Source: Gammaproteobacteria bacterium (GTDB lineage Bacteria; Pseudomonadota; Gammaproteobacteria; Natronospirales; REEB76). From it: a stretch of DNA of 64,000 nucleotides. Position 1 is the first letter of the stretch. Every line of letters starts with the position of its first letter. The position numbers and the translations under genes were made by a program. The notes under the pieces are model-generated. The model was not told the DNA's origin. It ran no database searches and saw nothing but the letters and a program-made list of their open reading frames with translations. Where the stretch lies: NCBI GenBank assembly GCA_036383255.1, contig DASVOS010000004.1:124001-188000 (forward strand). The letters run 5' to 3'. Below are positions 15,684 to 17,166 of this stretch, one piece after another.

Positions 15684-16340
15684 TCAGCCGACCTTGCTTC
15701 GCTCGCGGAATCGCCGCACTTTCGACACATTCCCGCAGGTCTGCATGGAGCACCATTGGCGCGAACGGTTCTTGGAGGTATCCAGAAATACCCAGCCGCA
15801 GTCGTCCGCGCAGCACTGCTTGATCCGGTCCAGGGGCCCCGACTCCAGCAGCTCCACCGCACGCCAGACGATCGGGCCCAGCACGGCCAGCGGCGGGGCA
15901 CCCTTGAAGTCCCAGCCGCAGCTCACCTTGCGGCCACCTTCGTCGCAGGCGGCGATGCGCCGCCAGGGGGCAGTCTTCTGCACGAGCGTGTTCAGATGGT
16001 CGAGGGCGGGCTGGGGCAGCACTTCGTGGCGTGAAGCAGCCAGGAACAGGGCTTGCAGGCTCTTCACCAGCGCCAGCGCCTCATCGAAGGCTTCCGCCTG
16101 AGCCTTCTCTGAGCCAGCGGAGAGATTGGCGCTGCTGATGGGGCCGATGAGGTCCGCCCGCCGACACCACTCCAACAAGTCCTGGTAACCATGCAGGTGG
16201 CTGCCGGGGCTGTCGCTCTTGGTGCCGCTCACGGTATTGGCGAAGTCCAGGGCCACATGGCCCCCGACCCAGCCGAGGGTTCCCAGGTCCCGGACCGGCG
16301 AGTTGGGGGCCTTCTTGGGGGTATCGGTGATTTTTTGCAT
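15684..16340 (-). CDS. CGNR zinc-finger putative transcription regulator (ABATE/CGNR family)
   Basis: The 218-aa protein has the ABATE N-terminal domain (GGHVALDFANTVSG near residue 27) and a C-terminal CGNR zinc finger: C176/C181 in QCCADDCGWVFLDTS and C197/C202 in WCSMQTCGNVSKVRRFRER. The usual CGNR tetrad is CGNV here. Members are thought to be stress-responsive DNA-binding regulators. ATG 16338-16340 has no ribosome site but is six bases from a TATACT box, so the mRNA may be leaderless. Two matching operators lie between it and the divergent ABM-fold gene, making autoregulation likely. Confidence 0.88.
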   Translation of the reverse strand: MQKITDTPKKAPNSPVRDLGTLGWVGGHVALDFANTVSGTKSDSPGSHLHGYQDLLEWCRRADLIGPISSANLSAGSEKAQAEAFDEALALVKSLQALFLAASRHEVLPQPALDHLNTLVQKTAPWRRIAACDEGGRKVSCGWDFKGAPPLAVLGPIVWRAVELLESGPLDRIKQCCADDCGWVFLDTSKNRSRQWCSMQTCGNVSKVRRFRERSKVG

Positions 16341-16370
16341 GTAACCAGTATAACTATCTTGACTAGTTAC
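16341..16370. promoter_or_regulatory. 30-bp operator, CGNR side
   Basis: GTAACCAG (16341-16348), 14-base spacer, CTAGTTAC (16363-16370); seven of eight arm positions pair. It begins immediately at the CGNR start codon and contains the reverse-strand -10 box TATACT, so a bound protein would block transcription of the CGNR gene. Confidence 0.6.
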
Positions 16371-16388
16371 GCAAGGGGGTCTAGGCTT

Positions 16389-16418
16389 GTAACCTGTCAA
16401 TCCTACTATACAGGTTAC
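16389..16418. promoter_or_regulatory. 30-bp operator, ABM-fold gene side
   Basis: GTAACCTG (16389-16396), 14-base spacer, CAGGTTAC (16411-16418); a perfect dyad with the same arm length and spacing as the site at 16341-16370. It covers the plus-strand box TATACA (16407-16412), the probable -10 of the ABM-fold gene. Confidence 0.65.
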
Positions 16419-16429
16419 GGAGCGTAGCC

Positions 16430-16879
16430 ATGCATGCCACCACTGACCTCGACCCCAAGCTGGGTCTGCCCCTGTGGCGGGCCCTGGTGGATTACTTCCG
16501 CCGCCATCCGCCCCTGGTTCAGGCAGACCAGCGCCTGCCTGAACCTTCCACCGGCGCCGGCACACGCCTGATCAGCCGGGTCTGGCACGGCTGGGCCCGT
16601 CCGGAGAAAGCCGACGCCTATGAGATCTTCCTGCGGGACCGCTCCTTGCCGTCGATCCGCGCCAAGGGCCTGCCCGGCTTCCACGGCATCCAGCTCGCCC
16701 GCCGTCCCGACGGCGACGAGGTGGAGTTCATCACCGAGATGTGGTTCGACGACCTGGAAGCGGTGAAGCGCTACGCCGGCGAGGACTACACCCGTCCGGC
16801 GGTGCTGCCCGAGGCGGCGGCGATGCTCAGCCGCTACGACTCGCGCGTGCGGCACTACGAGATCCGCATCGAGAAATGA
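16430..16879 (+). CDS. ABM/EthD-like dimeric alpha-beta barrel protein with N-terminal extension
   Basis: The 149-aa protein has an N-terminal module of about 45 residues (DLDPKLGLPLW, PPLVQADQ) and a C-terminal ABM-like domain: SRVWHGWARPEKADAYEIFL, KGLPGFHGIQLARR, DEVEFITEMWFDDLEAV. This fold includes monooxygenases and small-molecule-degrading enzymes, but many members are uncharacterised. GGAG lies seven bases before ATG 16430. The N-terminal module is repeated in the next gene. It is divergent from the CGNR regulator and likely under its control. Confidence 0.78.
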   Translation: MHATTDLDPKLGLPLWRALVDYFRRHPPLVQADQRLPEPSTGAGTRLISRVWHGWARPEKADAYEIFLRDRSLPSIRAKGLPGFHGIQLARRPDGDEVEFITEMWFDDLEAVKRYAGEDYTRPAVLPEAAAMLSRYDSRVRHYEIRIEK

Positions 16880-16890
16880 AGGAGAAGACC

Positions 16891-17166
16891 ATGGACACCC
16901 GTGACGTGGACCCGAAGTTCGGCCTGCCCCTCTGGTGGGAGGTGGTGCATCACTATCGCAAGTATCCGCCGCTGGTGCAGGTGGACGAGCAGTTCGGCCT
17001 GCCGCTGGCCCAACCGGACCAGGCGGCGCAGGCAGGCTACCCTCCCCGCTGGCTGAGCTGGCTTGCGGTGGCGGGGTTGGTGGCGATGCTGTTGCTGGTG
17101 AGCACGCCCGGAGCGGGCAGCCAGCCGGGACCGCAGCACGCCCTGCAGCACTATGGGCAGTATTGA
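16891..17166 (+). CDS. Small membrane protein sharing an N-terminal module with the ABM-fold protein
   Basis: This 91-aa product begins MDTRDVDPKFGLPLWWEVVH with PPLVQVDEQF following, closely matching the N-terminus of the preceding gene, then has one transmembrane helix (WLSWLAVAGLVAMLLLVS, about 58-75) and a short polar tail. GAAGGAG lies six bases before ATG 16891; the gap from the previous stop is 11 bases, so they are co-transcribed. Its stop directly abuts the convergent mscS stop. I know of no named family for it. Confidence 0.75.
   Translation: MDTRDVDPKFGLPLWWEVVHHYRKYPPLVQVDEQFGLPLAQPDQAAQAGYPPRWLSWLAVAGLVAMLLLVSTPGAGSQPGPQHALQHYGQY

Follow-up and report, generated by a model that had tools for sequence, protein, structure and literature searches.

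In the window, by which we mean the whole stretch of 64,000 nucleotides of gammaproteobacterial DNA under analysis, a gene for a regulator of the CGNR/ABATE family lies divergently to a gene for an ABM-like protein, which is followed on its own strand by a small open reading frame; the DNA between the two divergent genes carries two dyads, treated here as candidate operators (table 1). The regulator has an N-terminal ABATE domain (PF07336), scoring 62.6 bits against a cut-off of 24.4, and a C-terminal CGNR zinc finger (PF11706), scoring 70.2 bits against a cut-off of 24, in which four cysteines, C176, C181, C197, and C202, are invariant in a seven-member alignment and constitute the putative zinc ligands. 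The literal CGNR signature is absent, the window protein having CGNV and both relatives described below CGND, with the Asn retained. Jann_2411, the only clear relative by sequence in the PDB, itself carries CQNR (PMC2954205), and the literal string consequently does not define membership of the family. The structure of Jann_2411 (PDB 3h0n) is a dimer, in which the treble-clef zinc finger was proposed to bind DNA and the N-terminal domain to bind a ligand, with a cavity located within the dimer interface (PMC2954205); the homodimeric state is known in the ABATE/CGNR family for this protein alone (PMC2954205). The window protein resembles Jann_2411 in having both domains above the Pfam cut-offs together with the four finger cysteines, and differs from it in its CGNV finger and in the operator proposed here, for the 2009 structure paper proposes no DNA site (PMC2954205). 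Four proteins were run against NCBIfam, and none matched a model. According to our Pfam search the protein is rare in Gammaproteobacteria (5 of 369 genomes). ABATE/CGNR proteins in general are widespread, and the 17 CGNR-bearing genomes that we re-examined have from one to 17 copies each.

Table 1. Features of the divergent locus (coordinates counted from the first letter of the window; a dot marks features without strand)
Feature	Coordinates	Strand	Remarks
CGNR/ABATE regulator gene, 218 aa	15684..16340	-	ATG at 16340; Pfam ABATE and zf-CGNR
CGNR-side operator (candidate)	16341..16370	.	GTAACTAGTCAAGATAGTTATACTGGTTAC on the - strand; orthologous loci keep GTAACTAGTCAAGTGTGATACACTGGTTAC
-10-like TATACT of CGNR gene	16347..16352	-	inside CGNR-side operator; from sequence
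-35-like TTGCGT of CGNR gene	16369..16374	-	by eye, weak; 16-bp spacer
Spacer between operators	16371..16388	.	18 bp; together with the operator edges contains both -35-like hexamers
-35-like GCTTGT of divergent gene	16385..16390	+	by eye, weak; 16-bp spacer
Divergent-gene-side operator (candidate)	16389..16418	.	GTAACCTGTCAATCCTACTATACAGGTTAC; orthologues have GTAACCGTCTAGCTATAGCTAGACGGTTAC in the same place
-10-like TATACA of divergent gene	16407..16412	+	inside divergent-side operator; from sequence
ABM-like divergent gene, 149 aa	16430..16879	+	possibly of dimeric alpha+beta barrel type; Pfam ABM below cut-off
Small ORF, 91 aa	16891..17166	+	from the ORF list; starts 11 bp after the ABM-like gene

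The product of the divergent gene scored 16.8 bits with Pfam ABM (PF03992), against a cut-off of 23.1 (E = 0.0076). Its predicted structure, which is of low confidence (mean pLDDT 55), has a ferredoxin-like order of strands and helices, and the best fold matches of this weak model are EthD/ABM-type proteins, with E values of about 2e-3 to 1e-2. Since the Pfam score lies below the cut-off and the predicted structure is of too low a confidence to decide, what had been called an ABM gene in an earlier note on this DNA is retained here only as ABM-like: it resembles the superfamily by a subthreshold match and, tentatively, at the level of the fold, while differing in the score and in the low confidence of its model. 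The 91-aa open reading frame matched no Pfam or NCBIfam family and is possibly the second gene of a regulated, cotranscribed unit. The beginnings of the two plus-strand reading frames are alike (DPK-GLPLW--V--Y---PPLVQ-D, positions 16430–16500 and 16891–16990) and seem to represent a common N-terminal module; a similar N-terminal segment is present in the relatives' ABM-like protein, and in the 91-aa frame the segment is followed by a membrane-helix-like stretch.

Two Dyads of the Same Design

Read directly from the sequence, the CGNR-side dyad is GTAACCAGTATAACTATCTTGACTAGTTAC and the divergent-side dyad is GTAACCTGTCAATCCTACTATACAGGTTAC, both of the type GTAACC-N18-AGTTAC, 30 bp in length and 48 bp apart; the two 30-bp dyads of common design that the earlier note had described in the promoter between the CGNR and ABM genes are thus present exactly where it placed them. 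The arms are perfect over 9 bp in the divergent-side dyad and match in seven of eight pairs in the CGNR-side dyad. The two dyads are inverted copies of one another (70% over 30 nt), so that each faces its own gene, and when read toward that gene each takes the form GTAACYWGTCAA...TATACWGGTTAC. With up to two mismatches, the pattern GTAACC-N18-GGTTAC has three matches in the window against a shuffle mean of 0.41, and the only zero-mismatch matches of a tighter pattern in the whole 2.59-Mb genome are the two dyads themselves; the looser TAACY-N18/19-RGTTA adds a single match genome-wide, on another contig, against two for the reversed control.

The regulator is present in three of 56 related genomes, namely that of the window and two others of the same taxonomic family, one of them recorded as a Gammaproteobacteria MAG (L022). 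The regulators of these two relatives are 57–58% identical in protein sequence to that of the window, and both genomes keep the pair of dyads, at a distance of 47 bp, together with a divergent ABM-like gene (35–36% identity); the dyad on the ABM side is in their case a perfect palindrome. The earlier note had made its reading depend upon conservation of the dyad beside CGNR orthologues, and this conservation is observed in both same-family orthologues as well as across phyla, where a first strict scan found the dyad in 42 of 83 CGNR upstream regions.

The Site across the CGNR Family and the Finger Residue

A scan of named genomes with the single protein as query gave no match, and a profile scan of the same kind of genomes yielded 80 CGNR loci from many phyla, to which loci from related genomes were added. 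The promoter DNA of 86 CGNR genes, 34 kb in total, contains 68 copies of TAACY-N18/19-RGTTA, and about 400 kb of flanks contain one: at gap 18 there are 45 sites inside the promoter windows and none outside, at gap 19 there are 23 inside and one outside. Gap 8 adds 18 sites inside and none outside, nearly all other gaps have 0–3 sites in the same windows, and the enrichment is limited to gaps of 18/19 and 8/9; the reversed-sequence control in promoter regions gave none at gaps 12–26. This gap profile constitutes an internal control, because the composition is identical for all gaps, and it defines two classes that differ by approximately one helical turn. The sites are mostly paired, 41–49 bp apart. 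In a hold-out set, for which the Pfam model was used to fetch loci independently from further genomes of the phylum, the strict motif is present in 20 of 27 loci, the promoter windows (11.6 kb) having 36 sites and the 73 kb outside them one, while a third set of paralogues, mostly actinobacterial and about half of them unscored owing to a finger pattern that was too strict, peaks at gap 18 (27 sites) and gap 9 (22 sites). Spacing class follows the CGNR tree, with six changes between long and short in 77 rows, a clustering beyond that of all shuffles, and one clade of 28 rows belongs entirely to the long class. Sites of the short class, with TAACC half-sites at gap 8 (9 in actinobacteria), were seen at L028, L040, L047, L048, L061, L062, L094, L099, L108, L110, and other loci, often next to AzlC or glyoxalase genes.

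The sequence of the arms is broader than the TA-type motif. Dyads of the form ACY...RGT with three complementary outer bases number 39 at gap 18, where 0.26 would be expected from the flanks, and 12 of them are not TA (TATACC/GGTATA, GCTACC/GGTAGC, CTTACC/GGTAAG, ATCACT/GGTGAT, CCAACC/GGTTGG, and others); the two arms change together with symmetry kept, as expected of the site of a dimer. The reading of the earlier note needs refinement here: The general site is wider than GTAACC-N18-GGTTAC, with ACY...RGT as its core, additional gaps of 8/9 and 19, and a base 2 that varies with the protein. Both window dyads have the features of the operator class that we propose for Asn proteins, namely ACY-N18/19-RGT with complementary outer bases and base 2 A, upstream of the CGNR gene: their arms are TAAC/GTTA, the gap between these is 18, and base 2 is A. 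The half-site profiles have T(C/A)AA at +7 to +10, after GTAACY, in each of the four half-site classes, and this extension is strongest (TAACYTGTCAA) in the regulator's own site, in its upstream half. The inner TGTCAA directly follows the TAACY arm at 16395–16400 of the window and, at most loci, in the site nearest the regulator gene (e.g., L023, L036, L103), and is strongly conserved in gap-18/19 and gap-9 sites alike. We considered it as a -35 element and rejected it: In many gap-18 sites it lies only about 4–8 bp from the -10-like string, and in gap-9 sites it stays beside TAACC.

The divergent neighbors belong to many families, including alpha/beta hydrolases (about 22), AzlC (6), EamA (5), arginase-type proteins (5), MFS (4), and glyoxalases (4), among others, so that what remains constant is the CGNR protein. 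No recognizable box was seen at about a quarter or more of the CGNR genes (37 of 136 Asn proteins), some boxes having been missed by the upstream interval searched or by the pattern. Across 19 genomes the box is in most cases not in excess over the reversed-pattern control, and the regulon is therefore probably local; a slight excess was found in a few genomes, such as those of L095 (Tatumella; 40 against 28) and L076 (an Enterobacter; 17 against 12).

Base 2 of the operator varies with the signature residue of the finger. It is A in 91 of 99 Asn proteins and in none of 26 Ser proteins, in a pool of 190 distinct proteins that includes those in which the Ser rule was first seen (Fisher p about 4e-20, relatedness ignored). 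Ser proteins have T or C at this position, a rule predicted from eight proteins that then held in newly fetched ones, which were collected with a codon pattern for WCxMxxCG[S/T] from the class or order to which each of three genomes with Ser proteins belongs (an actinobacterium, a Ktedonobacteraceae MAG, and Fulvivirga): none of the Ser proteins has A at base 2, and their boxes are again at gap 18 (35 matches). A Pfam search of Bacteroidia for further CGS proteins returned nearly none, and the codon pattern succeeded in the order to which the genome of L051 belongs. One CGT protein has an ATAACC box. The exceptions among the Asn proteins with a dyad, eight in number, have a different base at this position, and in two cases the exception is clearly real (CTACC in L078 and L085). 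Along the tree the residue has changed at least eight times, and a test of independent pairs gave three well-supported pairs with none in the opposite direction, too few for significance. The pairing of Asn with adenine is a classical contact, which makes it plausible that the finger Asn directly contacts A at base 2. Together with the conservation described above, this covariation supports the proposal of the earlier note that the dyads are candidate sites for the CGNR regulator. For the family as a whole, it is likely that a DNA recognition code is obeyed, in which Asn would read the A at base 2, Ser would go with T or C, and the gaps would be 8/9 or 18/19.

Some divergent cases deserve mention. 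CGNA and CGNS proteins (L041, L067, L096) have sites of the type CCAACC-N18-GGTTGG, in which base 1 becomes C and base 2 stays A, a hint that the residue after the Asn may matter for base 1; L041 and L067 have arginase-type neighbors. The distant Bacteroidota CGNR gene of Fulvivirga marina (L051) has a divergent gene that is ABM-like by eye, and its boxes, TATACT...GGTATA and ATCACT...GGTGAT, are as expected for a CGS finger.

Putative Promoter Architecture and Proposed Mode of Action

Each dyad contains a -10-like string in its gene-side half, and with the -35-like hexamers picked by eye the region plausibly forms two face-to-face promoters. The boxes TATACT and TATACA, one per dyad as in the earlier note, are real as strings, and a consensus promoter scan of the region returned no promoter above threshold, either -10-like box included. 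Because no base separates the CGNR start codon from its operator, an mRNA from that -10 would be leaderless; the divergent gene has GGAG 7 bp ahead of its ATG. Several relatives have a TATAAT-like string within the proximal site (e.g., L026, L031, L035), and at many loci no more than 15 nt separate the proximal site from a possible start codon, a position that fits promoter occlusion.

In functional terms, the dyads are very probably autoregulatory operators, at which a CGNR/ABATE dimer represses its own gene and the ABM-like gene until it is released by a ligand. One dimer would occupy each dyad, with each C-terminal zinc finger on one TAACC half-site, which in the upstream half of the gene-proximal site would be extended inward as TAACYTGTCAA, and the Asn of the CGNR motif would specify A at base 2. 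As the operator would extend from the -35 end to the transcription start and cover the -10, bound dimers would exclude RNA polymerase from both promoters, and the CGNR protein would repress itself along with the ABM-like gene. Release of the regulator, and with it induction of the putative enzyme, would come from a small molecule, for which the ABATE domain is the probable binding site. Binding, dimeric occupancy, and the ligand are what we infer from the comparisons, as is repression rather than activation, which is suggested by the position over the -10.

This last step raises a question: Could the CGNR protein bind the dyads as an activator, or activate one promoter while repressing the other? 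Position alone is no proof of repression, and -35-like hexamers that are both weak, with no consensus promoter passing the scan, are common at activated promoters. However, the dyads extend over the -10 as far as the start codon, the promoter spacers are 16 bp as against the 19 bp of MerR-type activation, and the TATAAT-like string inside the proximal site of several relatives also speaks against it, so that we consider activation unlikely. Much less probable still is that another regulator, or some general promoter architecture, accounts for the dyads and that their position beside CGNR genes is incidental. The evidence is comparative, and the inner TGTCAA and the -10-like strings show that the motif may include parts of the promoter, but the divergent genes are unrelated between loci while CGNR is constant, the remainder of each locus lacks the sites, these show no genome-wide excess in most genomes tested, base 2 changes with the CGNR finger residue, and spacing follows the CGNR tree. 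That the dyads function as attenuators or leader hairpins in RNA, as inverted repeats can, is scarcely credible, because their position is over the -10 and ahead of the inferred starts, a hairpin would have a loop of 12–18 nt, and the exact gaps of 18/19 and 8/9 with near absence of the arms elsewhere fit a protein on the DNA helix.

A self-regulating local repressor with a palindromic operator is an ordinary kind of system; what appears to be new is the site with its two classes of spacing, along with the rule for the finger residue. In our search of open-access journal papers, among which only the 2009 structure paper (PMC2954205) describes a CGNR/ABATE protein and others mention the family in passing, we found no operator for it. 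If the recognition code is true, operator and target gene would become predictable from sequence for very many uncharacterized regulators, and a site that recurs across phyla, passes a hold-out, and is linked to a residue of the protein would render function, target gene, and specificity testable family-wide. An almost unstudied family of DNA-binding proteins would thus gain a concrete and testable binding rule, and the locus would offer a candidate new operator/regulator pair for ligand sensing.

Repression by the CGNR protein, as proposed here, would work like that of TetR/MarR-type repressors, which are likewise small one-component regulators with a palindromic operator over their own and a divergent promoter, and with an enzyme or efflux target next door. 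The CGNR protein is not a member of these families, since only ABATE and zf-CGNR domains were found in it and the helix-turn-helix is absent; in contrast to them, a zinc finger would read half-sites separated by 23–24 bp, or by 13–14 bp where the gap is short, and there is a separate operator for each promoter. Three operators rather than two were seen in the divergent promoter of L059, L076, L101, L115, and L122.
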